Of a stretch of DNA of 64,000 nt, positions 12,539 to 40,135 are shown one piece after another (the stretch's first letter is position 1; every line of letters begins with the position of its first letter). Source of the DNA: Rosellinia necatrix (taxonomy: Eukaryota > Ascomycota > Sordariomycetes > Xylariales > Xylariaceae); the NCBI GenBank assembly GCA_021209875.1, contig JAGYVD010000003.1:5580001-5644000 (forward strand). Direction: 5' to 3'. The notes under the pieces were generated by a model. The model had not been told where the DNA came from. It saw nothing but the letters and a program-made list of their open reading frames with translations, and ran no database searches. A program made the translations under genes and the position numbers.

Positions 12539-12725
12539 TAATAAAGTTTACTAAAAATAATATAATTAAGTCTATAAAAATATAATATAAAATTAAAAAA
12601 AAAAAAAGCTTCTGGTCCCGCAAGGACTAGAAGCTTTAAGCTAGTACCTTATCTAATCTACACAATCTTTATCTAGCTAGCTGCGCTAGCTAGATAAAGA
12701 GCCCCCCTCTTCCTAACTGTGTTAA
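12539..12725 (+). repeat. 186-bp double-hairpin element, copy B
   Basis: Second copy of the element at 4.5 and 41.7 kb. The 5' third is heavily AT-converted, while both palindromes (around CTTCTGGTCCCGCAAGGAC and the CTAGCTAGCTGCGCTAGCTAG core) are well kept. Confidence 0.7.
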
Positions 12726-13585
12726 TTATATTATATAAAATTAACTATATATGTTTTATTAATATAAATATAATAAACAGCTATTATATTACTATTAAGA
12801 TTAATAATATTTAATATAGCCGCTATAAGTTTTATATTAGATATAAATATTAATATTATATTAACGCTATTAATAGTTATATTATATTTGCAAATATCAA
12901 AATTAAATACCCTGCTTTTAAACAACAGCTAATTATTATTAAAATTAACAAACAAAAAATTTGTTGATAAGCTAAAAATAAAAGCTATAACAATATAGCT
13001 AAAGCATTTTTATATTTATCATTATTAATAAAAATATTAATTAATATAATAGCTAATATTAATAATATTTCTTATATTTATTGTAATTTAGTAATAATTA
13101 AGCTTACCGATTTATACAGCAAAAATTTTATAGATATTTTACAAAACATTAATACAGCTATAGCTGCGTTAAATCTACTTTAGCTGTTTTAAATAGCGCT
13201 ACTTGTTTATAATAATAAATTTAAACAAGTTATAAATATTTTCGTTAAAAAATAAAAACTTTGCAACGTTAATTTATATAAAACTTTGCTTTAAAACATT
13301 AAAAATAATATTTTTAAAACATTAAACAAGCTTATTAATTATTCCAACGTATATTTTAAATAATATAAAAAAGCTAATATATATTTAAAATTTATTAAAA
13401 GATTTGTTTATTTGTTATATAATACTACTTATAAACTTATGTTTTAAAAAAAAATAATAAAACTTATTTTTTGCCGACTTATATATATAATAGCTATTTT
13501 AATACCTGACTTAATTAAGCAAAAATATATAACTATATAACTAATTATATTATTTAATTTTTGCGATTTTTTTATACTTTTCTGA

Positions 13586-14581: not shown

Positions 14582-15365
14582 TCCGATTTAATAACGTTTT
14601 AAAAATAAAATTTTAAAACGTTAAATATATATTATTATAACTTTTAAAAGCTATTTTTAATAATATAAAAACTAAACAGATTTTTATTTACAATATAATA
14701 AAAGCTATATATGCAGAATATAATATTAATAACAAGTTATAAATATATTAGCAAGCTTATATTATATAATATTTAAATATTATTATTTTCTTTTAAAAAA
14801 AAACAGAAAAAATAGAATTTATTAATATTTAAACAGTATAAATATTATTATATAAAATAAGCAGCAAAAAAAAAAGCCTGTTAAATTATAAAGTATATAT
14901 TATCAAGTAAATCTACGCTTTATAAAAATTAAATTACTTGCTAGTATTAACAATAAAAATATTAATTTTACTAGCTTATAAAGCTGTTTATATTTAACTA
15001 AATAAAAAATAAAAACATAATAATATTATAAAGTTTATTATTTTTACTCCAGCTTATTTATATTAACAAAAAAATAAAAACTTTTATACTTATTAAAATT
15101 AAAATTTTTATAATTTAAATTTAAAAAAAACTATAAACAAATATATTTATAAAAAAGCTTGCATAATATAAAAATAAACTAAACGCTACTATTAAACTTA
15201 TTTAATTAATATATAAAAACACTGCGCTAGCTAAAATAAAAGCTATAATTAAAACAATAATATTAAGCGATATTATAAAAAAAAAGTTAATTTTTTATTA
15301 ATATTTAATTAACTTTAATAATAAATATATAAAATATTATAATATTACAGCTTTTTTAATAATAT

Positions 15366-15678
15366 TGTTAGAACTATGGCAATTAGTTATAGTTACTTAC
15401 AGCTGTTATACATATATATATTTTATATAAGCATATGGCATATATGTTATATATATACATATAGCGTGTATGCTTTATATATAAAACAAACTATATTATC
15501 GCTGTTATTTTAATAGGTTGTACGCTAGCAGAATTTTTATATAAGACTTAAAATAATATTACGTATAATAGTTACTTAGATAGAATAATCAAGCATAATA
15601 AACATTATATAACAAGAAGTTGTATTCTGTTTTACGCGTGAACAGTACATGCATCGCATGTATGAAGCCCATTCAACA
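15366..15678 (+). mobile_element. Copia-type solo LTR, 313 bp, copy 1
   Basis: Starts TGTTAGAACTATGGC and ends CCCATTCAACA, ends typical of Ty1/copia LTRs. It is flanked by the 5-bp duplication AATAT (15,361-15,365 and 15,679-15,683). No internal retrotransposon sequence adjoins it, so it is a solo LTR left by LTR-LTR recombination. A second, more decayed copy of identical length is at 49,078-49,390. Confidence 0.8.
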
Positions 15679-18600
15679 AATATAATATTTAATTAATTAT
15701 ATCGACAGTAAAAACGCTGCAAAAAATATAAATTTTACTGCAGTTATTTAAAAAGTTAATATAATTTAAAACAAACAGATAAATACTATCAAAAAATTAT
15801 AAATAAATAAATAGATTAAAAAACAAAAAACTTTAATAAAAATATTGATAAAAATATTAACAAAAAAAAATATATATATATAAAATATTAAATAACGCTG
15901 TTTAAGTTAATATTAACATATAAAAAATAGTAGCACAAATAAAATTAATATTAATATATTTTAATATATAATAAAATATAATATTAATATTGTAAAAATA
16001 TTAAAACAATGAAATATTATATAAAATAAATTTAATCGCTTTTTTATAAAATATTTACGATTAAATAATAAATAAAAAAAGTTTATTATAAACGATCTTT
16101 AAGTTGTATTATATAGCTGCAAACTATTAATAAAATATTTAAAAAGCAAAAAATTAGTATTAAAATATTTTTTTTTTAAATTGCTACTATAAAATACAGC
16201 AGACCAGCATAAATTTAAAATAATATAATTAATACTAGTTATTAAGCAATAAATAATCTGTTTTTTATATTTTTATAACGTATTAAATAATTAGTTGCTA
16301 TTTTAATATTAAAGCTGTAATTTTACGGCTAGACTGCTATTTAATTATATATATATTACAGCCGTTATGTTTAATTAAAACAATAATCAGCTTAATAATA
16401 TTACAGCTTTTTATATATAATATTTATAAAACTATAACTAATAAAACTATTTTATATTATATACGTTTTAATTATAATAATAGCAACAAAAAAAATATAT
16501 GCGGACTTTATTAATATATATAGCTATAAAAACTTTGCTATTTTGCTTAAGCTAAAAAAACTACTAGCAAAAATTATATAACGCGGTTAAACAGCGTTAT
16601 ATAAAAAAAATATTCTTTAAAGTTTGTTTAAATTAATTAAAACTGTTATAATAAAATATTTAAAATAACGTTATATATACTTAATTATATAATATATTTT
16701 AATTAATCTGTAAATTTATTAGCAGAACGTAGCGTTATAAAAAAAAACAAGCAAAAAATTATATAAAAAATTGCTAAAGCAGTTAATTAAAACGTTATAT
16801 TAACAGGCTAATATTATAATTTATACTTTTTTATTATATTAATTTTAAGTACTACTATTAACTTAATAATAATTTAAATTAATAAAATATTTTATATTAT
16901 TAAATTAAATATATTTATTTTTTAATTAAATAATTTAAAATATTTATATAAATATTTTTAAATAATTTTAAATAAATATAACTGTTAATTTTTTAATATT
17001 ATTATATATAAAAAAAACAAAAAACTAAGCTTTTTAATTTATTTGTTTAATAAATAAAGTTTTTATTAGCAGCTAAAATAAAACAAGCTAAAATAATACT
17101 AGTTTATAGCTTAACTATTAATTATAGAGCTAAAAAAAATGTTTTTTTATTTGCTTTATAGATATTTTAAAACAAGCAAATAAAAAATTTTATATTAACT
17201 ATAAAAATCTTATAATATTATAAGCTTAAAATTCTTTTATAAACTAGCCGCATTAAATATGAAAAAATTATTAATTTTTTAATTTTAAAAAACTAAAATA
17301 AAGCTTTAAATAATATTAATATTTATATTATAGTTTATATAAATTATATTTAAAATATTATTATTTTTATTTTTGTTTTTAATTTAATATATTTATTAAA
17401 ATAATAATTAAATATTATAGTTATTATTTATTATAAAGCATAAGTTATAGTTTTGCAGCAAAAATAAATAAACTATTTAAAACTAAAATATACTACGATT
17501 TTATTTAAATATATATAGTTTAAAAAGCTTAAAATAATAAATTTTATATTTTTATTATTAATTTTATTTAATTTAATAAAACAAAATTTATTAAAAATAA
17601 ATATTTAATAACTATTATATTAACTTGCAGATTATATATAAATATTTAAATAAATAATACTTTTATATAAAATAAAAAAATCAGAAAAACAGATTTATTA
17701 AATAGCTAATTAAATTAAAATTATATTATTTTAAACAGGCTATAACTTAAACATTTTTAAAAATAAATAAAATAATAAATATTATTATTATAAAAAATAT
17801 ATAAAAAGCAATAAAAATATTATGCCTGATTTTAATACGTTAATTATTAAACAGTATATTATATTTAAAATTATATAAAAATAATTAAAACTTTAATAAA
17901 ATTATTTGTTACGCTAAAACAATTTTAAGTTATTTAAAAATAAAGCTAAAAAGCTATTTAATTAAATATTTATTTATATATTATTAAAAGTTATAAAATA
18001 TTATAAAAACTTTAAAAAATTAAAAATAAAAAATTAAATAATAATAAATTTTATAAAGCTTAATTTTATAAAGCTAGTTTAAACATAAGTTTAATTTAAA
18101 ACCTGATTAACTATAAAATAAAAAAAATTAAACAAATAAAAACTATTATGTAAAAAACAAAATTAAATATATTTTAAAAATATTGAAATATTTCTTGATT
18201 TTTATAATAATATATTACAGGCTTTAATAATTAAGCTAATTAAAAACTAATCGTAAAATTTTTAATTTAAAAATTAATTAATAACACTTTATTAAAAATA
18301 ATATTTAGCAATAAAACATATTATTAAATTTTTATTATATAATATTTAAATACTAATAATTTAACTAGCGTATAAAATATATTATATTTATAATAAAAAC
18401 GGTATAGCGTTATTATATATTATTTATAATAAATAAAATATAAAATATAAAAATAATTAATTATTAATATAAAATATATTATGCTGTTTATAAAATATAA
18501 ATTTTAATTTATATATTAAAAAATAGTAAATTTTTTGTTATAAACATATATAACTAGTTTTTAATATAAACATTAACATAAAAACAAAATATTATTATAA

Positions 18601-18860
18601 TAACATTTAAAACTATAATTAAATATAATAACTTTATAACCACGATTAATAAAAAATAATAACAATTTTTAATATAATTATAAAAACTTATTTATTAAAA
18701 TTAAAATTGCTTTTATTATTAATTTTGCTACTATAAATATATAAAGTTTTTAATTAAAATTAATATAAAAAAAACTAAATAAAAATAATAAAAAAGCAAT
18801 ATAAGCAGTAATAAATGTTTTAATAAATAATTATAAAAACATAATTAAATACAGAAAAAA

Positions 18861-19115
18861 AATTATTAAAATATAAAAATATAGATTAAAATATAAAAAT
18901 ATATTATTTTACAAACTTATTTAAAAATCTATTAATAACCTACGAAATCTTTTATGCTTTTATTTATAAACTGCTATATTATTAGCTTCACTTTTTTTTT
19001 TACTAACTAAAAAATTAAAATCATATATTGGTCCCAATTTAGAATCCTTGTCGTATTAGCTGTAGCCAGCAATACAATACTATTATTTTGCGTGCCGCTA
19101 GCCCTTACAGTAGAA
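18861..19115 (+). repeat. Left boundary direct repeat (outer half RIP-decayed, inner half intact)
   Basis: About 255 bp that align without large gaps to 40,393-40,650 in the same orientation, 21,532 bp apart. Up to about 18,968 this copy carries T/A where the right copy has C/G; from 18,974 on this copy keeps C/G and the right copy is converted. The switch lies in the stretch ATAAACTGC (18,966-18,974). It marks the exact edge between the AT-rich flank and the gene island. Nature of the repeat unknown. Confidence 0.85.
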
Positions 19116-19179
19116 GCCAAATAGAGTCGCACTGGCTACTATACGTTGGAGTTCTAGCAATGTATTAGTGAATATAAGA

Positions 19180-19500
19180 AGAAAATGTCTTACCGTAGAT
19201 GGTAGACATAAGAATTAATAGAATGGAGCCTTGCCCCTATGCTAAGCTATCTACTTGCGACCCATCTCTGATCCTCCTGTGACGAGCCTTCACAATGGAC
19301 ATCAAGCACATGGTATATATATGTACATGAAATTCCGCCCTAATGGCAATGATGGGAACCATGGGAGATACCCCGCCTCCTGGATGCAGCCTCTGGAGCT
19401 TGAAATTTCTAGTTTTGTGCAGCTATCAAAATGCCGTTAATATCAATAGACGAAAACGAGACCTTCAACTATTTCCACCCTCTCTTCGAGCTGGATAGTA
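19180..19500 (-). pseudogene. Decayed C-terminal fragment of an O-methyltransferase gene
   Basis: On the minus strand, about 19,430-19,340 reads TRNFKL then a PGGGVSPM-like stretch, resembling the end of fungal COMT-type methyltransferases (pattern RFK followed by PPG). Upstream, near 19,490, EERVE recalls the ERxxEDW segment. The DNA at 19,185-19,290 aligns imperfectly with the 3' end and downstream region of the intact methyltransferase at 19,980-20,090 (shared blocks TAGATGGTA and GCTATCTAC). Frames are broken by stops. I infer the remnant of a duplicated methyltransferase truncated at the island edge; the match is weak enough that this remains tentative. Confidence 0.45.
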
Positions 19501-20073
19501 GTGAAGTGAACCACTTGTAATAAGAGGTAGCAATGGCGGCTCCGTTGGGGATAAGTCGCCCTTCCGCTTCCGACTGTAGATCGTGTTACTTGCACATATG
19601 GGGAACCAGTTGAGCAAGGATATGCGGGATCATAGAAATCAATTAGGATAATTCATCATAATCGCCGAGGCCAAAAAACGAGCTGAAGAAGTAAAGCTTC
19701 AAATTTTGCATAGACGATTCCGTACCCCGTTTTATTCCACTCGGGTTAATTTAGCCCCTTAGTATCCATTTCCCTATTTACCCAGTTACAATACCCCACT
19801 TCACTACTGTGAAGGCAAAACGGAACCGTTCCACCTTTTTAGTTATGTTGGTATATATGCAAACTACTCCGTGACAACTACATAATGCCATTGTCAGGTA
19901 TATGGATCACATGGCGAGGCACCAGCTACCCCAGAGGGTAGCTCTAAGGGCATATTTGTGTATATAAGGACTGAAGGCCTCCCACCTAGATGGTAAGCTC
20001 AGGAATCAATGATATTGAGCCCTATCCCTATACTTGGCTATCTACCTGCTGCCTAGTTGCTACCTCATAGTGA
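19501..20073. other. Intergenic, no gene seen
   Basis: Normal base composition, no open frame with recognisable content. The right part (about 19,900-20,073) is the downstream region of the methyltransferase and resembles 19,120-19,290. Confidence 0.5.
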
Positions 20074-21624
20074 CTAAACCTCACTCTGGGCATTCATAAC
20101 ATGACAGCCATCCTCCGCAGAATATCCTCCCGGGGTCCATTGTGCTTTTATGAGCGCCTCTTTACTTCCAGGTGGCGTTGTTATACCCAGAAACTTGAAG
20201 CGGGTATCAGCTTTGGCGAATAGAGACTTCCAGTCCTCCTGATCACGTTCTTTGCCGTTAGTGAAGCATTTCATGACTATGTCATATCCCCTGTTCATGT
20301 GGTTAGCCGTTTAGTATATGATTTTGGATAGTTGAGAAACCAATCACCTCAACCATTGCTCTTGGTATAGACTAGCAACACCCTTAGGGGGAAAGCAGGC
20401 ATCGCTTATAATGATCATGGCACCCTCTTTCAATGCCGGTATGAGATTTCGGAGAATCTTCACGCCATACTTATCACTCCAGTCATGTAATATCATGCGG
20501 AAGAAATACACATCTGCACCCTTGACTGGCTGTTCAAGAAAAAAGTCGTGAGGAACGAAGTGTATTCTCTCAGCCAAATTCTCTGGGAGCTCTTGCCTCC
20601 CGACGGCGATTGTACGAGCCGAGTCTTGCACGATAAACCTCCAGTGTTGATAGTTCTGTGCCAAAGCAATGCTTACATGACCTTTGGAGCCGCCAACGTC
20701 CACGAAGAGTGGACTTTCGGATTTGTTGGCGCAAACATCCCCGAGGACATATATCGCTTGAAAACCCACGTTTGAATAGACGTACTCCATGCCATCAGAG
20801 AATCTTTTGATTCTTTCAGGGTCTTGCTCCCAAGTTTCAAAAGCTGGTTTTACCAAATCGTGTGCAATCGCGTAAGCCTGGATAATGATCAATATGCCTG
20901 TTATAATATTAAGTGCATCTTTCGGCAACGTACAGATTCCAGCGGCTCTTCGGACCCAGGGTATTTTTTAAGCGCTTCAGTGATCTATCCAATGTAAGTA
21001 AGCTCCAACTGACGTTCATGCGATATAATCACACTAGGAAACACTCACCTTTAGCATAGGGGGCCAGTTTTCTTTCGTCATGAGTCCAACCCAAGCTGAA
21101 AGCCCGGGGTCATTCCCGAGGAGGAAGGACGAAGCAGTATGTGTGACCATGCCATCTCTTGTCTCGTCGAAGAGGTGATGAGCCATAGCAAGTCGAAGCA
21201 TCCGCCTGGTGTCCTCCTTATCCAAGCCGCATTCTTCGGCGAGCTTATCATAGGTAATTTTCTCATCCCACTTTAGGCCATACCCAACCTTGTAGGTGTA
21301 GATGAAATCCAACGCCATTGCTCGTGTGCTCTACCTGGCCTTGGTTAAACAGAGCTTAGTGAAGAATTGGGATTAATTACGAACAGCTGGACCAGCTTCC
21401 ATGACTATTTCTGATGGGGTCGCAAGAAGATTTTGAAGGTCGTGGCAGGCCTCCTTGGCCGCTAGACGAGCTATCTCAACTTCATTAGGGAGGCCTGAGG
21501 GCGTCGTTGATGGCTGAGAGCCATGGTTTGGCCAGGGTATTTCTCGTGAGATATAATAATCTTGGTAAGTTCCAACATTCTTTAAAATAGAAGACAATAG
21601 CTCGGTAACCTGTGAAGAAGACAT
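20074..21624 (-). CDS. SAM-dependent O-methyltransferase (COMT type)
   Basis: Five exons on the minus strand: 21624-21381, 21320-21049, 20984-20934, 20877-20348, 20290-20074, joined by introns of 56-64 bp, give 437 residues, a normal length for fungal O-methyltransferases of the PF00891 family. The N-terminal part is the dimerisation/winged-helix region (ECGL...RRMLRLAM...HTASS, about residues 112-150). The SAM site VDVGGSKGH is at about 248-256 and the catalytic-base region LHDWSD at 319-324 with the expected His320. The C-terminus has the ERDQEDW and RFKFLG segments. All key residues are present, so it looks functional. It presumably methylates a hydroxyl or other nucleophile on the pathway product in the cytoplasm; the substrate is unknown. 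The exon 1 acceptor was chosen to keep frame and is the least certain junction. A decayed relative lies just downstream. Confidence 0.9.
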
Positions 21625-23271
21625 GATCTATTCATTCAGTGTCAACAAGAAGGTGTGCATGTACGTGTGTCTGTGTGTGTGTACCTTGAGATCTGAGTCA
21701 GTGGAAGTTGTGAAATCGTAATGATACAACATCAACTACGGTCGGTTTAGTATTCACCCACAGAAAAAAACAAGCCTCGTGACAATTTGTGATGTAACGA
21801 TGTCAGCAGTTGGGGTTCTGGGTCGTAGGAGGCCGCTCAAGGTGTTCTAGCATCTAACAGGGGCTCTGGGGTACTCTGCTCCAGATAGAGTGATTGGCAA
21901 TGGAGAGATCAAATTCAGAGCACGGGCAACAAGACATTTAATTTCCGGTTATTATTACAGTAACCGGAGGTGGCAAATTTATTTTCTGGTGGATGCTACT
22001 TATATCATGTAATGCAATATAAGCATGACCTACGTATGTGGATGGAAGGTTTGTCTGATTTTGTAGGCGAGAAGCCTTCTCTCCTCCATACAGGTAGCTT
22101 TAGGATTTTGTATGTCGATGCATCAAATAATCATATTGTCTTGTGTGTAGATAGTACCTTGATCATGAAGGTGTGTGCGTATGGCATTCAGGCAGCCAGG
22201 TAGGTGTCTCCAAAATGTCATTCTGCAGGAGGGGGGGGGCGGTGTTCCGCAGCCTAGACTGATGATTTCTTCGAAAGTATCGCCGCCTACTTGACCAACA
22301 AGTGGCGGTGAAGGGAATCGAAATGCGCAGCTAAACTGTCCTAGGGTTGCGTGCCTAACTATGCAACCAGCTAGGTCATTCGCCACCACCATTTAGATTA
22401 GGTACGTCGTATTAATTCGGATACCTTACTTAGTTGCGGCAGCTACTCCAAATATCCATTATGCAGTAGCATACACTATCTTAAGCCACCTACTACCTAA
22501 ATGGTTATCATGTTGGGTTTAAATATTAACGTATGGTCCCCACATACTCTATTTGAAAGCACGCCTCTATGAGATGTAATCAACGCGCTAGTCGGCTGTT
22601 AAAGGTTAGAGATATATATAGGCTGGCGGGTAAGAAACGAATCCGCATGACACAGGCATTGGCTAGGTGACATAGATAGGAAGTAGTTGCATGCTATTGA
22701 GAACTATCTTAGGTATTTAAGTAGCGTAGCAATAATGTTGCTAAGTCCTGATAGGCATAGTCTACACTGAATAAGAAAGCTATTTTTAAATATAGATTTG
22801 TGAAGCGAGAATATACTAATAACTAAGGCGACTTCATGTACAAACCCCTACCGGGTCAGCAGCTTTTATGTTAATGGGTGTTTCGAGATGCTGCCTAAAG
22901 TATGCGGGGGACCATTTTTAGCTGTTGCTCAGGCATATATTGCTATAGCTATTTTGAAACTTTTCCTGATTAGGTCCGCTACCGATCTGTATTATTGGCT
23001 TCGATTGATATCGGGGTCCTCGCGACTTAAGCGCCAAAGTATATATTTAGGTACATAAGCGTGTCTGTCTTAGGCAGGAGGAAGATAAATCCCGAAGCTT
23101 AGGTAGATCAAGGTACATTTGGCACAAAGCCCGGGGGAATTCCCTTCTCCAGTCTCCCAACACACGCACACACTCGGCGCATCAAGATTTGATAGACTAC
23201 AAACTTCAACACCCCCGACAATCCCATCTTCGATGCAGCTGCTAACTGCACATGCCAAACATGAACCGTTC
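21625..23271. other. Intergenic, 1.6 kb, no gene supported
   Basis: Separates the methyltransferase start from the 3' end of the peptide gene. Short open frames on both strands (for example 21,970-22,203 and 22,123-22,392) overlap each other, match no family I know and have no supporting introns. It must contain the methyltransferase promoter near 21,625 and the peptide-gene 3' UTR near 23,270. A G-run lies near 22,232. Confidence 0.5.
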
Positions 23272-23499
23272 TTAGCCTTGCTCGGCATAAAGCCCAGCAT
23301 CGGGGTATCGGATGTCTTCATCCCGATCAGGGTAGCGGATCTGCTCATCATTGTCATGTCGTGCCATGATGCCGTTGTTGGTGGCTGCTGTTCGTTAGTG
23401 CCTGGAATATTATACTGCTGTACACAGCTTACATTGAATGGGCTGGGCCGAGCAACAAAACCCTAACAAAACAACAATAAGGATAGAGAAATACATCAT
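23272..23499 (-). CDS. Candidate RiPP precursor peptide: signal peptide plus two IRYPD repeats
   Basis: Two exons (23499-23433 and 23387-23272) around a 45-bp intron with GTAAGC donor, CACTAAC branch site and ACAG acceptor encode 60 residues. Residues 1-18 form a signal peptide (MM, hydrophobic ILIVVLLGFCC, then SAQ for cleavage). Residues 36-44 and 45-53 are tandem 9-mers of the form DE(Q/D)IRYPD(R/A), followed by AGLYAEQG and a stop. The two units differ at three synonymous third positions (GAG/GAA, CGC/CGA, CCT/CCC) and one amino acid, strong evidence that this frame is translated. Secreted precursors with repeated Tyr-containing cores are the hallmark of UstYa-dependent fungal RiPPs, and three UstYa-like genes start 0.7 kb away. 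Unlike UstA-type precursors it has no KR/RR Kex2 sites. I infer it is the pathway precursor; the exact core is not known. Confidence 0.72.
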
Positions 23500-24167
23500 G
23501 AAATTTTAAGAATGCGTGTAGTATAGAAACTGTTTTTGTTGAAGTAATTTAGAGATAGCGAGATTAGACTCTAGCTGTAGCCCTTGGTGTCATAAAACGT
23601 CTACAACACGGGATAGACATGCCTCTTATATATCGAGGGCAGGGTGGATTTGTAGCGTCTGACTTCGACAGGGCTCCTACGTGGTGTGGGAGATGTGACA
23701 GTCCATTCATACGATTATGATCCCCGGCCATGATCCTCGGCTTCCATTAGTGTATCTTTATGTCGTTTATGCAACCCACAATAATACCTACCCCGCGGAG
23801 TATACGTTCCCCGTGTAATACATGAAACATCATGTGTGATGTACATGGGATGGGTTACGAACTTCACCTGCAGGACCCACCCTCCGGATGTCAACAGCTT
23901 ACCCCCCCAATGCATCCCTCACTCTATGGAAGCCGAGCATTTTTTTCTCCAGCCGCCGCTAGCTTAAGCCACAAGGGCGCTTAATATGTGCCTTCCTGCC
24001 AATGTTACGCCAGCATGCGGTAGCCGGTATGCTCGTCCTAGACTGCATAGCCGGCTTTCCCGTAAGATAGGCGGGACCGATTTCTTTGCGTGTAGCATCA
24101 TTCCAGCTTTCTGTTTCTCCTCTCTCTAACAAGCCCTACAATCACTTTCCGGTTCTCGAGTGTGGCT
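23500..24167. promoter_or_regulatory. Divergent promoter region, peptide gene / UstYa-like gene 1
   Basis: 668 bp between the divergent starts of the candidate precursor gene (-) and the first DUF3328 gene (+). A shared regulatory region is inferred from geometry only. I see no binding site I can name. A short open frame at 23,715-23,915 (-) has no support. Confidence 0.4.
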
Positions 24168-25099
24168 ATGGATCGATTACCACAAGCCGATCCCGAAATA
24201 GAGCCCTTCATCAAGACCGAATGTGATGAACACTCCCGATCAACCTCTAAGGATTGTAGCTTCGTGGCGTGGTGGACTGGGCTTTCCTCAAGAGCGAAAG
24301 CCCTCGTCCATATTGGCGTCATTCTTTTTTACACGTCCTGTCACTTGGTCATTCTCTTTACGAACAGTGGAGGGGAAATGCACCCAAACAATGGTAAGAT
24401 TCGCGTGCTATTTATATTTGTGATCGTTAATGGCCAACAACTTGAAGCATTAGAGAACGTACAATTGCGATGGAAGCCCACCATGAGCCTCACAGCTGGT
24501 GCAAGTCCGTTTGCGGGAGGACCAAGCGACGCTGTTGATAGTGCGTGGAGTGAGCTCATGGAGAAAATTAGCATAAGGGCGACTCAAGATGAACTCAACA
24601 AAAATGGAAACCATCAAACTTCAGTCAATCTTCCTGCCGGGGGCGGAAACTTGGTTTGGTTGGGGGTATTCCACCAGTTGCACTGCTTAGTACGCATGTC
24701 CCGCTTTATTAGCTACTCACATCTAACAATAATGGCCACAAGAAAATGCTGCGCCAGTTAAATTACAGAGAGAGTTATTTCCCAAACCAAACCGACGCCG
24801 ACACAAAAGATCTCGAAGTCCATCTCAGTAAGTCTGCTCAAACTTCACCCGAATGCTGAAAACGGCATTGTAGTAATCAATATTTAGATCATTGTGTGGA
24901 AAATTTGAGACAGGCAGTTATGTGCTACCCGGACACCTCTTTCACAACATTTGTTTGGACTCACTCAACCCCACGGCCGGTCCTAGATGTCCGAACTTTT
25001 GAGAGGAAGTGTGTTGATTGGGAGCATTTCATGCGTGAGATAGATCCAAGGGTAGTGAGCTTCGAAGAGGTGGATAGTTTGAAAAATCCCCTTCTGTAG
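24168..25099 (+). CDS. UstYa-like DUF3328 oxidase 1
   Basis: Exons 24168-24393, 24454-24689, 24743-24827 and 24888-25099 (introns 53-60 bp, the second with branch site CTAAC) give 252 residues. I start at ATG 24,168; an upstream in-frame GTG is not needed. Layout is that of the DUF3328/UstYa family (PF11807): short cytosolic N-terminus, one membrane helix at about 45-64, then a lumenal domain with the two signature motifs HQLHC (149-153) and HLNHC (181-185), and the later pattern CYPDTS plus a conserved Cys near CVDWEH. In ustiloxin, phomopsin and cyclochlorotine pathways such proteins are copper-dependent oxidases that cyclise or otherwise oxidise peptides. Here it diverges from the candidate precursor gene. 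Both motifs are intact, so activity is expected; which bond it forms cannot be read from sequence. Confidence 0.9.
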
Positions 25100-25272: not shown

Positions 25273-26054
25273 CTACAAGCTAGCGGTTTGACTTTTTTGT
25301 TGAAAAACACTCCAAGCCACAACATCATCCCATACTACGCATTGATGCTTCCCATCGAGCCCAGTAATACCACCGAGAGATGGGTTTACATATTCCACAG
25401 TAAGGTCTGCATTGCACATCAACATTTGACGTAGAAAGTCAATACAGTGCCTCGTGTGCCAATCCGTCTGATAATCGTTTAAGTCCGAGAAGGTTACATT
25501 GACCCCCTGCATAACGGCATCAAATAGAACATAGTAGGCTTGTCTGATAGCATCAACGCAATGTAGTTGATGATATACTGCTAGACTTGCGCCATGAGGA
25601 GCAACTGTAGGATTGTGAAAAAAACCTCCATGGGGTGGAAAGATGGACTCCCAAAGCTTATTTGTTTCTGGCGATGGGGCCTCGGCGAATGTCTGATTAT
25701 AACTGAATAAACTAGTTGTAGTGCGAACTTACACTTTGTAAGCTTGCGCCGCAACAGTACCCGCAGGAATTACTTACAGGTAGAATTCAAAATTGATCTC
25801 GTTTCGTTAACACAGGTGCTTCTATGGTAAATTTGGCCAATAGAATATCCAACAGTGCTTCCGATAGTGAAAGCAACGAGGCTTAACAATATGCACAGAG
25901 AGATTCTTGGGCCCGGATTCTTTGTGTGCAGCCCCCCGGTTTCAGTGACGTGCTCTTCGTCGTCAATAATGCGAGTGTAAAGGGCCGGCATGTCTTCGAT
26001 TTCGCTGTTTTTTTTTTCATGTAAAATTCTAACGATAGTGGGATTGAAATACAT
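25273..26054 (-). CDS. UstYa-like DUF3328 oxidase 2
   Basis: Exons 26054-25778 and 25727-25273, split by a 50-bp GTAAGT...GTAAG intron, encode 243 residues. One membrane helix lies at about 51-73. It is followed by the SYNQTF and NKLWESIFP segments typical of DUF3328 and the motifs YHQLHC (144-149) and HTRHC (183-187). The C-terminal part has MCNADLT and GLDGKHQCVVWDD, matching the family's C-terminal Cys/His pattern. The start at 26,054 follows an in-frame stop; Met22 is an alternative start. It is convergent with oxidase 1 (173 bp between stops) and divergent from oxidase 3. The role is as for the family: oxidative ring closure or desaturation of a peptide substrate in the secretory pathway. 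Confidence 0.9.
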
Positions 26055-26513: not shown

Positions 26514-27243
26514 ATGAGATTCTTCAATGCATCTAGGTCACCACGATACTCTCCGTTGTCGGCCGAGGGCCAATGTGAACGCTGCCGGGTGAAGGCATCA
26601 TACAAACGAGTATCGTATGCCTTACTTTTCCTTCTCCTGGCCATGTCTATAGTCGAAGGATATCGGCTTTTTGGAAATCCCGGTCCGAAAGAATCAATCC
26701 TTGAAGGTACAATGGACCTTTCCTTCCCTTCATGAAAACACTGACGCTTTGTCAGTGGCTACCGTTGCGAAAACATTCAGATACGATCGAAACTTCTCGT
26801 ATCCCCCAAGTAATACAACAGATTCTGCATGGCAAAGCTTGTTTCCCAAAGGCGGGGGGTTCTTCTCCCACCCGCCTGAACTGCCATCGCGTGTCACTAT
26901 ATCGATCTTTCACCAATTACATTGTTTGGTATGCCCTTCGCCCGGATTCTAAATGGGGATCTACCTGCCAACTACCATATAGGATAGTGTTCGCCGAGCT
27001 TATTGGATTCTCCACGATGCAGCTCGAAAGGGACAAAGGCTGTCGGATGAGGACTTTCCGGTGATGACTTCGCCGTCGCATGTAAGGCACTGCGTCGATC
27101 TAATACGCCAGGCTTTATTATGCCACTCGGACACGACAATAGAGGCCAAGGATGACACAGGGGGGGTTAGCGGGTTTGGGGTAGCGCATGAGTGTATTGA
27201 TTATGCAAGGCTATTGGAGCGCATCGAAGGATGGCAGGATTGA
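26514..27243 (+). CDS. UstYa-like DUF3328 oxidase 3
   Basis: Exons 26514-26706, 26756-26928 and 26983-27243 (introns 49 and 54 bp) give 208 residues, at the short end for the family. A membrane helix spans about 33-50. The lumenal part has FRYDRNFSYPPS, then DSAWQSLFPKGGGFF, HQLHC (117-121), RAYWILHDAARKG, HVRHC (155-159) and the C-terminal CHSDTT...HECIDY pattern. Both HxxHC motifs are intact. It is the closest of the three to a textbook UstYa sequence. It is followed by a 1.07-kb gap before the convergent P450. Expected to act with oxidases 1 and 2 on the same peptide; specificity unknown. Confidence 0.9.
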
Positions 27244-28313: not shown

Positions 28314-30054
28314 TCAGGGTTGCACTTGACGGAATCGTGCATCCAGCCCAATGTGATCGAGCATCCAATACATGGTGATCTCGGGCGGGGTCTCGGGATG
28401 CGCAAAGCTGATATCAAACGTTTTCAAGACCTCGGCTAAAAGCATGCGCAGCTGGACCATAGCTAAATCACGCCCAACGCAAGCGCGGGTGCCCCTGCCA
28501 AACTCAGGAGGAATTAGCTTTTTCGCGATTTCAAGGGCGGGGGATAATTACTTACTGCAAGGAAATTGCGCTCCATGAGTTTCAGGCTTGGCTCATCCGC
28601 CTCAAGCCAACGCTCGGGTCTGAAAACGTGTGCATCCGCACCATACACTTTGGTATCGCGATGAACCGCATATTGTGGGACGCTGACAATTGTGCCACCA
28701 GGAATATGGCGGCCATTGACCGACATACCACCCATGGGCACAACCCGTTCCATCGGGGGAGAGTTGGAGGAATAGAGCCTCAGTGACTCCTTGATGATAG
28801 CGGTTCTGGAATGGAATGTTTCTTAACACCAGAACTACCATTCTGTCGGGCATATATGATGACTCACAGGTACGAATTCTTCCAGGCTGCTACGTCTTGA
28901 GGGGCGCCACGAATCTGCCCAACCAGGCGAGAGTAAGTTTGGGGGTTACTGAGAAGGCAATAAAATGTCGTTCCTAAAGTAACAGCGACTTCGGCAGCAG
29001 CGGCAAAACTAGTTGCGCATAAGATAAAGCATAACCATTTCCGACGCATTTGATAACTTACAATGTCTCAAAGAGGATATTCACAGCCTCAGCATGCTGG
29101 TCTATATCAGAGAGGCTCTTTCTATCCGCAAGGACTTTACATATGAATGTCTTGTCGCAGAGATGAGGGGTATTGTCATGAAGTTTGATTCTATTTTCGA
29201 CTTCCTATTCCGAGTTAGAAGGATTCTGTAAGGCAACGAGGCAAGGAGAGCTACCTCCATGAATTCCTGGGTGGGGTCGGGGAATCTTTGAAAGCGTCGG
29301 AGGAAGTTCATAACTCTGTCATTCGCAAGGGTCCATGGGCACCATTCTGGCTTCTGCCCGAGGATTGCGGCGAACCCCGTGATAGTCTTGAAGGTGTATA
29401 TCCATTTATTCCAGTCATCCCTTCTTGTCATATAACCGTAATGATCCCCGAATACGAGTGCAAATGTGATATCAAAAGACCAAAAGAATGACCAGTAGGA
29501 TAGGTCTATTGACTGATTTTGGGATTTCATCATTTGGTCAATAAATACTGTAATGCTGTCCTTTATTTCATCGTGAAAAAGCGACGAGCATGTGGTCAAG
29601 TTCTTGCAGAGCGTTACCTTAAGCCTTTTGTTACGGGCCACATCCTGCGTTGTGAACACAGTGTCCATGGGCTGGCCGCGAAACAACGGCCGGAAAACAT
29701 TATAAAATTTGCTCTTCGATCCCGTTAGCCGCATCCATGATGTATCATCCGCAAGGAATCGTTCCGACTCACTTTGGCAAAAATGTTTCTTGTATCATAC
29801 ACTATAGGTATGAAAGAAGGGTCGGCGATAGAGACATGGTTTGGTCCGGTCTGGACAACAAAGCCATACTTGCGATGTAGATCAGCATAATGGATTGGAC
29901 CTTTCCCATCCGCTAGCAGCCAAATGCGATAGAAAGAAGACAATCGGGCCGGGATTGGACCGGGGAGCCGTCCAAGACGAGGCCAGCAGAGTCGAAAGAA
30001 ATACTTAGAAGCTAGCAGTAATATAGGAAATAAAAACACGAGAAGAAATGACAT
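28314..30054 (-). CDS. Cytochrome P450 A (pisatin demethylase/benzoate hydroxylase-like)
   Basis: Six exons: 30054-29773, 29713-29255, 29204-29062, 29008-28868, 28805-28556, 28502-28314, introns 50-62 bp, 487 residues. Start at the ATG of MSFLLV; residues 3-20 form the ER anchor, followed by the proline hinge RLPGPIPA. ExxR is ESLR (348-351), the PERF region is FRPERW, and the haem loop is FGRGTRACVG with Cys433. The I-helix reads FAAAAEVAV (296-304) where relatives have A-G-x-D-T-T, so the usual acid-Thr oxygen-activation pair is altered. Overall style is that of fungal plant-pathogen-type P450s such as pisatin demethylase. It diverges from P450 B across 424 bp. Likely oxidises a pathway intermediate, but the I-helix makes ordinary hydroxylation less certain. 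Confidence 0.88.
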
Positions 30055-30478: not shown

Positions 30479-32029
30479 ATGGAGCCCAAAACCGCCTCTA
30501 CACTCCTATGTGTCACATTATTTGCGCTCTTTCTGTTCAGGCGTCAACGACAGAGAGACACCATCGCCCGCAACCAAGGATGTGATCCCGCAGTCTCTCA
30601 TCGCCCCATGGAGCCTTTTTTGGGGTTTGACTTCCAGATGAAGATGTACTCACAAATTCCATTTCTCTACCGGCTCCATCGAAAACACGGCGACACCTAC
30701 CAAGTACCCTCTCTCATTAGCGCCCCTACAATCTGCACAATCGATCCTGAGAATATCCGAACGATCAACACATCAAAAGATTATGGCGTAGAACCCCAGA
30801 GACTTCCAGGATTAGAGAAGTTTTGTGGGCGTGGATTCATAACCACCGATGGTGACATCCGACAACAGGCTCGGAAACTACTGAAGCCTTCATTCGATAT
30901 AAAGAACATTCGTGATTTGGGCATCCTGCGAATCGAAACCGACAAGATTTTCCAGGGAATAACGAAAGGGACCACTGTCGACCTACAGCCTCTCTTATAC
31001 GTCATGGTCAGTCGTGCTGGACACTCCTAGTTTTACCCATCATCTAAGTCGGTCTCATAGTTTCTTAATTCGGCACTGCACTTTGTCCTCGGCGTTAGCC
31101 CATCAACGCAAGCATTCGATGCACCCAGTACGGCGGACGAGTTCGTCAAGACATTCCACTCTGCTCTGTTTTACAGCATGTTTCGGGTTATACTAGGTCG
31201 CGCATGGAACCTTCTACCCCAGAAGAAATACAATGAGGTGTGTGCCGCGGCGCATAGGTATCTCGACTACTACATCAATGAGGCACTTGAGAGTGATTCC
31301 AAACAGCAAAGCGGAAGTCTGATTCAGGGGCTTTCGACACAGACCGAGGATCTAAATTTCATACGTAGTCAAGTCATCCAGGCTATGATGGCAGCTCAGG
31401 ACACCACATCCGAGCTGCTCACCAATGCATTGTTTGTGTTAGCACGCCATCCAAACTATTGGGAGCAGCTCCATTTGGAATTTACTGGGAAGTCAGACGA
31501 AGATCTTTCGGCAGACCGTCTCCTCAAGTCTAAATTAGTCATGAATGTCTTACATGAGAGTAAGAGCCTTCAATCTGTCACTTTGCTACGGGATTTCTAA
31601 TGATGATTATAAGCTTTGCGACTATTCCCGATATTCCCACTGCTAGGCCGGGTTGCGCTACGCGACACTATTCTTCCGGTCGGAGGCGGCCCAAACCATG
31701 ATCGTCCCATCTTCGTTCCTAAGGGGTCACCAGTGGTGATGGCCTATTACGCGCTCCACCGGAATACTTCCGTGTTTGGGGACGATATCGAAACATTTAA
31801 ACCGGAACGTTGGAACTCATTCAAGCCACGACAGTGGGAGTTCTTGGGGTTTGGAAATGGCGATAGGGCGTGTCTGGGGCAGCAAAAGGCCACAATTGAG
31901 GCTGCTTACGTGCTCGCTCGATTCGCCCGAGAATTTTCGAAACTAGAAAGCAGGGATGCGCGCGATTGGAAAGGCGAATTGAAGCTGACTTGTAAGAGTG
32001 CACACGGATGCAAGATTGCCGTATACTAG
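30479..32029 (+). CDS. Cytochrome P450 B (CYP52/alkane-hydroxylase-like)
   Basis: Exons 30479-31006, 31061-31559 and 31614-32029 (introns of 54 bp each) encode 480 residues. A short N-terminal anchor (LLCVTLFALFLF) precedes KHGDTYQV and the family segment FCGRGFITTDG. The I-helix has AAQDTT (287-292), ExxR is ETLR (342-345), followed by RLFPIFPLLGR, the FKPERW segment and the haem loop FGNGDRACLG with Cys429. This set, including the DTILPVGGG loop, is that of CYP52-like fatty-acid/alkane hydroxylases and relatives recruited to secondary metabolism. All catalytic residues are present. It is paralogous to P450 C at 38.5 kb, with shared intron positions. Confidence 0.9.
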
Positions 32030-32612
32030 GTGCTCCTAGTTAGATCTCCAAGCCTCAAAGGCGGACTCGATTAAATTGTGACCTTTTCTTCTTCAGTACT
32101 CTCCCACCCTCGCACTAGTGTCTTCACGCGTTATTTAACAGCAACGGAGAGCCCGCCACCTCCGGTTAGCTATATAAATCAATAAAACCCCAGAATCTGA
32201 ACTATGAGTTTACAAATTTACCAAGCCTGTTGGACAAGGTCTATAAACTGAACGAAGAGATCGGATTTGAGAGTACATATTTTACGTGACGATATACTAA
32301 ATAGCAAACAGGACCACGGCGCTAACAGGATATTGTGGGACCGTTTGGGTCATTTCAAGGGGTAGCCGAAAAGGCACCCAAGGGCATACATTGAAAGATT
32401 TAGCTCCCCAGCACAGGAATGAGCTCTAGCACATGTTATCTTTTCAAACCCATGACTTTATTTCATCCACTAAACATGACATAGGAAGCAACTAGGTTCA
32501 AAAACGCTGTCGTTTTCCCTTCACCGCATTTGTAAGCTTAATCTTCAAAATAGTGAGATCTCATTCCGAGCTATCAATACCACATCAGGATGGAGTCCAA
32601 CATCATATAGCC
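32030..32612. other. Intergenic between convergent genes, nothing recognised
   Basis: About 580 bp between the stops of P450 B and the rhodopsin-like gene, presumably their 3' UTRs. No open frame with family content. Confidence 0.5.
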
Positions 32613-33988
32613 TTAGACTTTAGAAATTTCATGGTGGGATCCAAATGTGTCATGTACAACAATGACGTCGCCGCTTGGAACTTTGCCGGTTTCATTTGGG
32701 TCATATTCGGAGGATACTAGATGACGTTCCGAAACGGATGTCGTCTGATACCATGTCTGTTGCTCTTTCCCCGGCTCATCTGTGGTACTTAGTTGATTTG
32801 AAGGTATCGAAAAAGCTCTCTGTGAAGTGCTCCGAAGTGAAAATACAGATCTCACTTTCCCGACAAGACTCATAAGGTCGCTCTTGTCAGTAAATAGGGG
32901 GCGGAGAGTTGGCAGACATGCCGTAAACACCGAGGCGTAAGCTTCAATATGTGCCCAAAGATCGTTGCTTTCCGATAGATCTAACCAAATTAAGAAAATA
33001 TTAGTCACTAATGTCTTTTCCATAAGACTTTTCGTGATTGCGTACACCTCTTTTGCTCTATAGAGCTTCCAGTAAACCCCGCAAGGGCATGGGTGTAGTA
33101 TAACCTGATGACTGAACACACAAGACAGCTAAGGGAAGATTTCTTTTTTAGTTATCTCACTGTATCTGCATTGGAAGAATACTTACAATCCACCTAAGAG
33201 GAAGATAGCAGCAAGAGCAATCTTCCTTTTCCAAGTCAAATGCAGGCTCTTGATAATTGGGAAGTGGAAGACTTAGCACCGCTAAGTCTAAAGCTACATC
33301 GACCGCTGCGAAGGCAATGATGCCAGTCGCTGGGTTAATCACATATTCAGTGCCCTCAAGCTCTGCAGGGGTAGTCCAGAAAGTCGAAACGCCTCTAGCA
33401 GAGAAAAGGAAGGTCTGTTTATATTAGATGCACGTAACAGCAATTTAGGGGAATTCATGTCTCACAAAGAAGGATACGATCATGTAAATTGATATCGCAC
33501 CAATTGTAATGTTAGCGGCCACATTGAAAGATGAATCGATAGTAAATATCCTCTTGTAAAACAGCACAACAGATATCTTGATGAGGCCATAAACAAAGTG
33601 ACAAATGAGGATTGCTGAGAGTTGAACCTAACCCTCCCTTTTAGCGTTTTTAATAAAGATAATCTCAGTCCAGGCTCACCTTTCTGGACTTTACAAAGTC
33701 ATCAGGCGAGATGGAAGACCACGGGACTCCGTAGAGGTGCGCAGAGACAATGTACACAAAGCTTGAGAAAATTCCAATACACAAGACCTGCGAATCATTT
33801 AGAGAGTGACTCCGATGAATTGCAATGGGAAGACTAACAAGCGAGAAGAGTATGGCCCAGTCATCGCTTCTAAAAGGCTGTCGAGCCTTTCGGCGGATGG
33901 AGAACCGAAGAATGACTACAGTGCTCGCGAGGAGCAAGAGAATAACATTAGCACTAAGATGGCCAATGCTTTCCGGCGAAAGAGCCAT
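32613..33988 (-). pseudogene. Rhodopsin-like (Pth11-type) integral membrane protein, one-base frameshift
   Basis: Exons 33988-33680, 33627-33466, 33414-33187, 33128-33046 and 32980-32613 would give about 382 residues but for one extra base. The protein is of the fungal rhodopsin-domain family (PF20684): several membrane helices, the DDWAILFSLV segment, GLIKISVVLFYKRIF, the TFW and NPATGI stretch, a DVALDLAVLSLPLP helix, then KRKIALAAIFLLGG, VIRLYY and the signature ACLPTLRPLF. At about 33,255-33,258 the reading frame shifts by +1 immediately after LPLP: the next family residues IIKSLHL are read one base later. The summed exon length is 3n+1, in agreement. It may be a pseudogene or a sequencing error. 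The fourth intron donor (GTACGC) is uncertain. The role of such proteins in clusters is unknown. Confidence 0.75.
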
Positions 33989-35124: not shown

Positions 35125-36899
35125 TCAAATCGATTCTGCGGCAGGACTAGAAATCTTGTCTTGCGTGGACATAGACTGTGTATTGTTGCCTGATCCAATT
35201 GTAACAGGGCTAAGCTTCTCACGTCTCATTAGTAGTGACAGCACAATAGTTAGCCCCCCAGCAAAGATGGCTATGTAATAGACGTTGCTAATGGTTTTGG
35301 TGATTGCTTGCAGTACCAACTCATGTTTGTCAACCGGAATTGTAGCAAAAAAGCTGCCAAATACTCCTGTAACCGCTTGCTGCACGAGCGCTCTAGGCGT
35401 TGATGGGAGGACGTCTGAGATCATGTTGGTGGCTTGGTTTAAGAACACGCTACCACTGACCGTCAGGGACAAAGAAATCCCCATGATATGACCGTATCCA
35501 ATGAAGGCAACAGTCTTGGGGATCTCGGCAGGGGTAACGAGGAGCTGGGCTATAGCGTATCCTGTTTGAGCATACAGTCCAGAACCAAGACCAATCAGAA
35601 CACAATACCCGTAAATGGCGGCGACGCGAGTGTTGAGAGTGACGAGATGTAGAAGGACTCCTCCAATAAGAGACAATGTACCTCCGACTAAGTACCAAGG
35701 AAAGTAGTAACCGATGGGAATGGTTAAAACTCCGCTAAGGATAGTGGCGAAAACCTGGAAGATGACGAGAGGAAGCAAATGTACGGCGGACTTCAATGGT
35801 CCGGCATTCCAAACAAATTGGAAATAAAGGGGAATGAAATATAATGGGATGTATACAACGGCAGCCGCACACATAATTGTTATGAATAAAAGTACCAAAT
35901 CCCGGGATTTGAGATATTTGACGGGGAATATCCTATTTTCATCTGTTGTGAAGAGGGAAAGGTACTGTTGGGCAGTGAAGGCAGCCCACAGAACACCAGA
36001 GGTGACAAATAACCCAATAATCTGTCCGGAGGCCCAGGAATACAGGCCTCCCCCGAATGAAATTGCCATGACTAATGACACGGCAGCGCCGGCGTTTATA
36101 ACGGCCCCAACCCAGTCAACTGTTTTCAGACGTGACGGGATAGTTCCGGACGCAGGTGGATTTTGGGCAGGGAGAAGGAAGAGATAGATGGGGGCCATAA
36201 CGCCCCCGACGACAAGATTAATGTAGAAGCACCACCTCCATGTGGCTGAAGATTCTGTGAAAGCGCCGCCAATGGCCGGGCCGGTGCTATTTGCAAGTCA
36301 GAATGAGTTATCGAACACAGAACCAGAGGATATATCAACGCACATGGTACCAAGACCCCAAGTTATACCTAATAAACCAAAGTATCCAGGTCTTTCAGCC
36401 TCCGTTGTCATGGCAGACAACAGGTTCAGGACGCCAACATAGATACCACAGCCGCCGAGGCCACATACGACTCTTCCGATTATGAGGGCCGACATAGATG
36501 GTGACGCTCCACATATGGCCGATCCAATTTCAAACAGAATTATACCACTAATGTATAAGATTTTGTTGTCGAACAACATAAATAGATTGGATCTAGAAAC
36601 CACTGAGTGCTCGGCATACAAACGGGTGATCTTTCGGAGAGTTCGGACAGTACTTACTGGAGAAGGTAGAAGCTCACAACCCCTAGGGGATATGATACCG
36701 ACACCCATGGGAGCAAGTCGACATCGCCGAGTGATTTTATGATGCTAGGCTGGACGTTGGCCACGATCGTGTTGTCCAGGGCAAATAGATAGATCGAAGT
36801 CATCAGGGATGTCAATACACACGCCCACGACAGTTTCCGCTCCGGTCGGTTTGGGGCCGTTTTGGCCGCCATGGGAGACTCTGTTTCTTTGGGGTCCAT
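35125..36899 (-). CDS. MFS exporter, DHA14/TRI12-like, 14 membrane helices
   Basis: Exons 36899-36658, 36592-36344 and 36286-35125 (introns 65 and 57 bp) give 550 residues, the usual length for 14-helix drug:H+ antiporters. Start at ATG 36,899; the frame is open further 5' but without an ATG. Helix 1 carries FALDNTIVA (the DNT motif), helix 2 the WVSVSYPLG segment, then GRVVCGLGGCG, ITWGLGT, and motif C as TGPAIGGAF followed by WRWCFYINL. The rest alternates hydrophobic helices and ends in a polar tail rich in Ser/Gln/Asn. TRI12-type transporters often sit in metabolite clusters and export the product or give self-protection. It diverges from P450 C across 1.6 kb. Confidence 0.92.
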
Positions 36900-38489: not shown

Positions 38490-40135
38490 ATGAGCACTAA
38501 TTATGGTTTAATCGTCATCTCACTGACTATCTTCATCATTTTTGTGTCGAAGAAGGCTATAGGAAACTTTCGGCAGAGTCGCATCGAGCGCATGTTTCCA
38601 GAATGCCAAAACCCTCCAATGTACCCTCATATAGACCCAGTCCTTGGGATGGATCTTGTGATTAAGACCGCCAAGCTTATACGCCAGGATAGAAACCTGC
38701 CAGCCCTCGCAGAGCGTCACTCTGAACTTGGTCAAACCTACGTAGTCAATTCCATCGGACAGCACACTTTCCATACTATAGACCCGGAGAACTTCAAAGC
38801 TGTGTATGAAACACGATGGGCTGACTGGGGCGTAGCACCGGCCAGGCTGAAAGCCATGGAGCCATTCTGTGGGCGGGGTTTGATGAATACGGATGCGGAC
38901 GACTGGAGATGTCTGCGAGACTTGACAGCCCCTTGCTTCTCAAGATCGTCTATTGTCAACATGGAATCTTTTGGCTTGACGTTAGAGAGATTTCTGGATC
39001 GCGAAATTCAGAGCGGAGAGACCGTCGACCTGGCACCTCTCTTCTACCGTCTTGTAGGTCACTCAAATGACAACATTATTGCTCGAGTTGCACTCACGAT
39101 TATGAAGTTTCTTGACATAAGCGGAGAATTCCTCGTGGGTGAGCGGTTCGAGACTATATTAACACGTCACGGACCCCCGCCAGTGAGCCCATCACAGTTT
39201 CTGGATGCTTTTCATGGAGCACTTTCATGGTTGACGGTTCGTGTTTATTTTGGCACTTTAGGACGTATATTGCCAAACAGGGCCTTTCACAGAAATTGCC
39301 ACATAGCGCATTCTTTCCTGGACTATTACATTAGCCTTGCCATCGACAACGAGAAGCGAGGGGATACTGAGAGACTCTCGGCGAGCCAGAATCAAATGAA
39401 TGAACCTCTGCGTTTCGGCATGGCTGGCATCCTGGCACATAAAGCAGACAGTCGCCCCATGATTCGTTCTCAACTCCTTCAATCACTCATGAACATGCAA
39501 GAAACAACCTCCATTTTAGTCAGCAACACGGCGTTTCTTCTTTCACGACATCGCTCCATCTGGGTTCGCTTGAAAAACGAGGTTGCCCAAACAGACTTAT
39601 CAACGCTCACCTCAGAAAGACTAAGATGTCTGACACTCGCGTGGAATGTGCTAAGAGAAAGTGAGTTGTCCCCCCTCTGTATCAATGCGCCACCAATGCT
39701 TATGATTTTGAAGGCCTTCGCATATACCCGGTCCTCGCGACGGCCGGCCGGACATCTCTTCGAGACACGGTCTTACCACGAGGGGGCGGAAGCGACGGGT
39801 TATCTCCGGTGTTCGTACCTAAAAATTCAAGGATTATCACACCATACTATGGCCTGCATCGCAACGCCAAAGTGTTTGGCGAAGATGTAGATGTATTTCG
39901 GCCTGATCGGTGGGTTCATATTCGACCCGGCCCTTGGGAGTATCTCCCGTTTGGTAATGGCCCTCGAGTGTGCCCCGGCCAAGAGAAGGCCATGCTTGAA
40001 GCAGGGTTTGTTATCATTAAGTTGGCGCAAAAATATGAGAGGCTTGAGAGCCGGGACGACCAGCCATGGGCTGGGCGGTGGGCACTGACAGTGAAGAATG
40101 CGAATGGGTGCAAAGTATCACTCTGCACTTCTTAA
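38490..40135 (+). CDS. Cytochrome P450 C (CYP52-like paralogue of P450 B)
   Basis: Exons 38490-39053, 39108-39660 and 39714-40135 encode 512 residues. The start is the ATG of MSTNYG; the open frame extends upstream only through a TTG. An anchor helix (LIVISLTIFIIFVS) is followed by FCGRGLMNTD, the counterpart of the P450 B segment. The I-helix is MQETTS (318-323), ExxR is ESLR (372-375), then FRPDRW and the haem loop FGNGPRVCPG with Cys459. All core residues are intact. Both introns occupy the same places as in P450 B, showing a common origin. The first intron (54 nt) contains no stop and is a multiple of three, so unspliced message would stay in frame with 18 extra residues; I splice it because P450 B aligns across the junction. 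Confidence 0.9.

Follow-up and report, generated by a model that had tools for sequence, protein, structure and literature searches.

The question raised by this locus of Rosellinia necatrix is whether a small, intron-split reading frame lying beside three UstYa-like genes encodes the precursor of a modified peptide, and how such a precursor could be processed. The window, i.e., the whole stretch of 64,000 nucleotides analysed here, covers positions 5,580,001-5,644,000 of 5,863,781 on contig C7 of a 49.1-Mb genome in 12 contigs. Between about 20 and 40 kb of the window the GC content is 44-50% in 2-kb steps, and in the flanks (1-19900 and 40200-64000) it is 7-26%. Because the GC-poor flanks contained no stop-to-stop frame of at least 100 residues, the cluster is considered to be a 20-kb GC-normal island with natural edges (Table 1). 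Based on the results of this study, the probability that the small gene encodes the precursor of a RiPP which is modified by UstYa enzymes and works like a dikaritin is roughly 84%, and its product is probably a previously undescribed modified peptide. Its architecture speaks for a secreted precursor, and its position, repeated at a second site of the genome, for a UstYa substrate.

Table 1 Coordinates of the features of the island and of the sister gene (window positions unless another locus is given)
Feature	Position	Strand	Remarks
O-methyltransferase (Methyltransf_2)	20074..21624	-	PF00891, 3.2e-25; approximate gene model
Precursor gene	23272..23499	-	two exons; 60-residue product plus stop; open once one intron is removed
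Exon 1 (67 nt)	23433..23499	-	signal-type N-terminus MMYFSILIVVLLGFCCSA, then first part of leader; mean Kyte-Doolittle value 2.6 over residues 4-18
Predicted intron (45 nt)	23388..23432	-	donor GTAAGC, branch-like CACTAAC, acceptor CAG, in this order; two in-frame stops if retained
Exon 2 (116 nt)	23272..23387	-	remainder of leader, R32, acidic segment, two units, tail, stop
Repeat unit 1, DNDEQIRYP	23329..23355	-	7/9 residues as in unit 2
Repeat unit 2, DRDEDIRYP	23302..23328	-	7/9 residues as in unit 1
C-terminal tail AGLYAEQG	23275..23298	-	near-invariant in P0001-P0013
Divergent promoter, precursor/U1	23500..24167	.	exact 12-nt inverted repeat, 23736-23747 / 23926-23937
UstYa gene U1	24168..25099	+	four exons; HQLHC and HLNHC; PF11807
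UstYa gene U2	25273..26054	-	two exons; HQLHC and HTRHC; PF11807, 1.1e-21
UstYa gene U3	26514..27243	+	three exons; HQLHC and HVRHC; PF11807, 4.9e-13, last exon
Cytochrome P450 a	28314..30054	-	PF00067, 9e-33; model unreliable near 3' end
Cytochrome P450 b	30479..32029	+	PF00067, 7.5e-41 on model from 30390; alternative ATG at 30479
Fungal rhodopsin-domain membrane protein	32613..33988	-	PF20684, 1.9e-23
MFS transporter	35125..36899	-	PF07690, 3.4e-12, last exon
Cytochrome P450 c	38490..40135	+	PF00067, 1.9e-31
Sister gene	L012:4082-4317 (G000:C1 about 6671581-6671816)	+	exons 67 + 116 nt; 60 residues

The initial annotation had proposed a 60-residue precursor that appears only after removal of a 45-nt intron, and both its coordinates and its product (MMYFSILIVVLLGFCCSAQPIQSATNNGIMARHDNDEQIRYPDRDEDIRYPDAGLYAEQG, minus strand 23499-23272, after predicted splicing) were reproduced exactly. 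Among seven scorable frame-keeping GT-AG candidates that left the core intact, the 45-nt intron and a 48-nt form tied at a score of 7.8, with the next candidate at 4.4; the longer form uses the next CAG and would give a product of 59 residues. The layout of the product is a signal-type start, a short variable leader, and then HDNDEQ-IRYPD-RDED-IRYPD-AGLYAEQG. The signal peptide claimed at the outset is likewise predicted here, from the hydropathy of the N-terminus and an A-x-A-type site in the relatives. Neither KR, RR, KK, nor RK occurs anywhere in the 60 residues, and between the units there is only the single R44.

Residues D34-P42 and D43-P51 agree at seven of nine positions and their codons show four synonymous differences. 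In the register first suggested for the repeat (D36-R44/D45-A53) the three synonymous differences were found as described, but there are two replacements (Q38/D47 and R44/A53) rather than one. When residues 23-60 were shuffled 100,000 times, two of the shuffles reached seven or more matches at periods 5-12; this comparison was made post hoc. Moreover, in a six-frame tandem-repeat scan of 19501-40300 the IRYPD pair was the only one above the thresholds.

A 45-nt intron must nevertheless be assumed and the repeat is short, so that the frame could be suspected to be open by chance, with no gene at all. This explanation, whose probability is negligible, was ruled out by homologues sharing the core. 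A search with the single precursor sequence gave seven matches (best E 2.2e-16), and a search with a profile built from these first matches gave 16 at E<=10 (best 5.8e-31), 15 of them at E<1e-3; P0015 is marginal (3.9e-4) and P0016 not significant (0.26). The status of 23272..23499 as a gene is based on these homologues, which carry the same core. Byssothecium circinans (Pleosporales) is a named source among the 16, and four of the matches are annotated as 'hypothetical protein'. In P0001-P0004 and P0006-P0008 the signal-type start and the core are in one frame, as in the spliced product of the window. The window precursor, P0002, P0007, and P0011 matched no family in NCBIfam and Pfam. A protein search of the own genome with the module returned only the precursor gene itself (one match). 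Relatives were also sought by pattern in contig collections of viruses (14 matches) and of prokaryotes (47 matches), and none of these was confirmed.

It had been expected that the leader would vary and the IRYPD units be conserved among orthologues. This was borne out by the mean pairwise identities over aligned columns, 0.42 for the leader vs 0.89 for the 28-residue module (8 sequences, 28 pairs), but the RDED spacer and the AG[L/I]YAE tail proved about equally conserved. The comparison used 8 of the 17 sequences, i.e., the window precursor, P0001-P0004, and P0006-P0008, with P0006 trimmed to an inner Met; P0005, P0009-P0013, P0015, and P0016 were left out for lack of a signal-type start and P0014 because it diverges after unit 2. 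The 22 invariant columns in the first alignment of eight were all at or beyond R32; this alignment contained a P0005 row without a leader, so that leader columns were unable to score as invariant there. In the wider family the spacer and the tail change little while residue 2 of the units varies (R, V, or E in unit 1; R, T, E, or V in unit 2), and the variants of unit 1 retain [I/V]-x-[Y/W]-[P/S]-D around the variable x. Tyr is present in both units in 15 of the 17 sequences (the window and the 16 matches), the exceptions being P0013, with Trp in unit 1, and P0016, without Tyr in unit 2. RR or KR is found in P0008-P0011, ahead of the acidic segment or module only, where the window has AR.

The three adjoining genes had been called UstYa-like from their letters, and PF11807 matches bear this out. 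The models of U1, U2, and U3 comprise 252, 243, and 208 residues with two HxxHC motifs each. The UstYa (DUF3328) trio lies 0.7-4 kb from the precursor, U1 being only 668 bp away, and the mutual identity of its members is 28-34%. Identities to counterparts in five records were considerably higher (59-74%). All three counterparts were found on contigs of equal size in Periconia macrospinosa (P0018, P0021, and P0029; 101,044 bp) and in Zopfia rhizophila (P0032, P0028, and P0031; 445,352 bp), and pairs on equal-sized contigs in Glonium stellatum (6,857), Pleomassaria siparia (1,557,938), and one more record (9,134). Contigs of equal size are taken here to be one and the same, and the trio thus looks like an old unit that recurs whole or as pairs in other fungi. 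Counterparts of U2 were also present in Astrocystis sublimbata (Sordariomycetes; 68%) and Neopestalotiopsis clavispora (54%); the best match of U2 to solved structures (E 0.33) was not meaningful. None of 47 UstYa matches shared the size of its longest contig with any of the 16 precursor matches, in a weak comparison of longest contigs only, with proteins shorter than 132 aa excluded and 420 candidates scored. Byssothecium, which holds the precursor, was absent among the 47. The outcome, weak as the comparison is, does not favour a link of precursor and UstYa genes in other species.

The remaining genes of the island comprise one Methyltransf_2 gene, three P450 genes, an MFS transporter, and a rhodopsin-domain membrane protein (Table 1). 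P450 b and c are paralogues with 35% identity over 520 aligned positions. Of the island ORFs and models that were scanned, none had a Pfam match above the cut-off to an NRPS, PKS, tyrosinase, or peptidase family. Similarly, 24 further ORFs with lengths of 60-130 residues, located between genes or across the precursor and drawn from 122 ORFs of at least 60 residues in 19.5-40.8 kb, gave no Pfam match over the cut-off, the best score being Peptidase_M57 at E 0.09. Tyrosinase (PF00264) and subtilisin/kexin (PF00082) do match elsewhere in the genome; among the matches listed none is in the window, the nearest on the contig being about 2.4 Mb away and about 122 kb outside, respectively. At gathering scores, Rfam had no match between 18 and 42 kb, and blastn of the island against itself reported no duplicate.

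These gene contents bear on a further explanation, namely that the UstYa trio acts on a small molecule, non-ribosomal or of another kind, and that the small gene is a bystander. There is a precedent in cyclochlorotine, a non-ribosomal peptide which is hydroxylated by the DUF3328 protein CctR, according to PMC12435403. For this locus, however, such an explanation is very improbable: NRPS and PKS matches are missing from the island ORFs and models scanned, the flanks of the window are free of ORFs of at least 100 residues, the precursor is conserved elsewhere, and a sister gene of it, described below, also lies beside UstYa genes.

In the divergent promoter of the precursor and U1, the arms CTCGGCTTCCAT and ATGGAAGCCGAG of the inverted repeat are 178 nt apart, and an exact 12-nt inverted pair was given by 17 of 2000 shuffles; the repeat is a possible site for a regulator. 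As to a motif common to the promoters of the cluster, no 9- to 11-mer occurred in more intergenic regions than in shuffles. The numbers of shared 12-, 13-, and 14-mers were 11, 6, and 4 vs shuffle means of 4.9, 1.8, and 0.5, with a GTA microsatellite included in the counts. The 14-nt word GCCACCTCCGGTTA is common to two intergenic regions, in opposite orientations (21961-21974 and 32155-32168), which may be by chance (shuffle mean for 14-mers, 0.53 words).

As an in-genome control, the 13 other UstYa sites listed were each scanned over 9.5 kb for repeats in six frames. Multi-copy repeats were found at 6 of the 13 loci. Four of these loci have dibasic-delimited repeats, namely L010 (near 6429, plus strand; PWPLYVAKDAKR, with PWPLYVAKDA), L015 (near 5132, plus strand; SESDIDVADAFKR, with SESDIDVADAF), L018 (near 2885, minus strand; DAITFRYPIFRVAQG...KR), and L019 (near 3173, minus strand; LEKDNDDIWLWKK, with LEKDNDDIWLW), and their repeat ORFs are probably further RiPP precursors. 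At the other two the repeat is beside the UstYa match and was not dibasic-delimited in the scan (L014, near 6192, plus strand, FNYSNNIDNAV; L016, near 4942, minus strand, DNIIDPAKELHDAYGIKAR). Nothing was found in the scan at L011, L017, and L020, and only weak or low-complexity repeats at L013, L021, and L022.

At the remaining locus, L012, the scan gave a two-copy match, IVYPEPDLDDA/VVYPEPDPDSG, which belongs to the sister gene. Its product after predicted splicing is MRSSLVFILVHSMAIITTALPHGDVDEMIVYPEPDLDDAVVYPEPDPDSGVIYPDLYTDD; the predicted intron (53 nt, GTGAGC...CTGAC...TAG) follows a signal-type exon, and exon lengths, product length, and the place and phase of the intron are the same as in the precursor. 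The units of the sister product are IVYPEPD, VVYPEPD, and VIYPD, with acidic spacers. The gene is located between two UstYa genes, one closest to U1 (47%) and the other to U3 (46%), and two Methyltransf_2 genes are close to it. A pair of [I/V]-x-[Y/W]-P units spaced by 3-9 residues, a pattern chosen post hoc after both genes had been seen, occurred at 1 of the 13 UstYa loci (L012), once in the window (the precursor), and at none of 16 other loci (L023-L038, 3.3-3.9 kb each). When the 13 loci were shuffled 200 times, the pattern arose 28 times, i.e., 0.14 per set. A protein search with the sister module found only itself; since neither module finds the other gene in this way, the homology of the two is based on structure, motif, and neighbourhood. 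The tail of the sister product is DLYTDD rather than AGLYAEQG, which weakens the idea that the tail is a general recognition tag, and no Lys or Arg is present beyond residue 2.

With both genes in view, a secreted but unmodified peptide for signalling or defence must be weighed, i.e., a linear module whose adjoining UstYa genes serve another substrate. Such a peptide would agree with conservation of the entire module beyond the repeat alone, with KR and RR in the relatives standing only ahead of the module and never between the units, and with precursor and UstYa genes not being found on one contig elsewhere in the weak comparison of 16 and 47 matches. On the other hand, the precursor adjoins U1 and has a divergent promoter in common with it, the sister gene of like design is also situated between UstYa genes, no other repeat passed the island scan, and the aromatic residue is retained while x varies. 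A linear peptide is therefore considered improbable, though less so than a bystander gene.

For the UstYa-modified precursor, the following route can be proposed. The signal peptide would bring the precursor into the ER/Golgi lumen, where it would meet membrane-anchored UstYa enzymes; according to PMC12435403, CctR (DUF3328) is a binuclear copper enzyme associated with membranes, and its HxxHC residues bind copper and are required for activity. Proteolytic trimming may then occur behind the basic residue that stands ahead of the acidic segment (R32 here; KR, RR, or SR in relatives), although the sister product lacks Lys and Arg beyond residue 2. The UstYa enzymes would then oxidatively cross-link Ile and Tyr in each I-x-Y-P unit. 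Judged from the pattern of substitutions, an aliphatic/aromatic cross-linking step acting on [I/V]-x-[Y/W]-P with a free x has a little less than an even chance of being correct. The methyltransferase and the P450s would decorate the peptide and the MFS transporter would export it. The product could be a pair of short rings or a single longer peptide bearing both rings; separate units could be freed only by cutting at the monobasic R44, and the sister product offers no basic residue for such a cut.

More tentatively, and with a somewhat lower probability than the cross-linking step, the two genes could represent a Kex2-independent class of UstYa-RiPPs. In this class the UstYa enzymes would modify the secreted module whole, placing like [I/V]-x-Y rings one after another on one peptide (two here, three in the sister), and signal peptidase, with no more than one additional cut, would release it. 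Without Lys or Arg beyond residue 2 the sister precursor could not have its units released by Kex2. Such genes could be widespread but unseen, because they are 60 residues long, split by an intron, and not dibasic.

No description of the precursor family was found in the literature searched. The core strings IRYPD and IVYPD occurred only in papers with titles unrelated to fungal RiPPs, and four other core strings had no occurrence; subscription papers and supplements were outside the scope of the search, so a table of such cores may exist. In a 2025 survey of lichens, two UstYa clans without a recognisable precursor were reported, for which a single-core precursor was one possible reason (PMC12048977). 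The present family indicates one way in which precursors hide, i.e., 60 residues, a short intron, two or three units, and no dibasic sites. It also provides a search pattern for fungal genomes, namely a short spliced gene whose first exon measures 67 nt and whose product carries [I/V]-x-[Y/W]-P units; within this genome the pattern led to the second hidden gene at L012. Moreover, the frame is fixed and has one position that varies in nature, which makes it a clean substrate for studies of recognition by UstYa enzymes.

Among the known systems, the initial annotation had compared the gene with UstA-type precursors. The signal-type start, the repeated Tyr units, and the nearby UstYa/DUF3328 genes are indeed as in the dikaritins (ustiloxin, phomopsin, and asperipin-2a), whereas there are just two units here, no dibasic Kex2 sites between them, and a conserved C-terminal tail. 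With two units and no dibasic sites the gene is not a UstA-type repeat precursor of the classical form. Ustiloxin and phomopsin require tyrosinase, as stated in PMC7329392, but the cluster in the window has three P450s and a Methyltransf_2 gene with no tyrosinase match. The missing tyrosinase match, like the lack of dibasic sites beside the units, counts against the reading as a UstYa-modified precursor. According to the same source, their cores (YAIG, YVIG, and YVIP) are cross-linked between Tyr and Ile; the order is thus Y-x-I, as opposed to I-x-Y here, with Ile ahead of Tyr. The I-x-Y order fits by sequence the epichloecyclins (GigA), in which, according to PMC9233826, Ile is N-terminal and Tyr internal. 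GigA differs in having repeats of 27 residues, products that are octa- and nonapeptides, and a four-gene cluster which includes a kexin gene; the unit here has nine residues and no kexin-family match was listed in the window.

The kingdom-wide survey of KEPs considered annotated proteins with at least three repeats of at least eight residues between KR, KK, RK, or RR (PMC7329392), and a study of Venturia set a minimum repeat length of 10 residues, with kexin sites between the repeats (PMC9632046). The present gene resembles KEPs in being a secreted precursor with repeated peptides, and differs from them in copy number and in the dibasic rule. As it contains only two units and no dibasic sites, the published KEP criterion misses it. 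For the same reasons the gene is not filed as a KEP here, but is best regarded as a variant precursor that probably works like a dikaritin.
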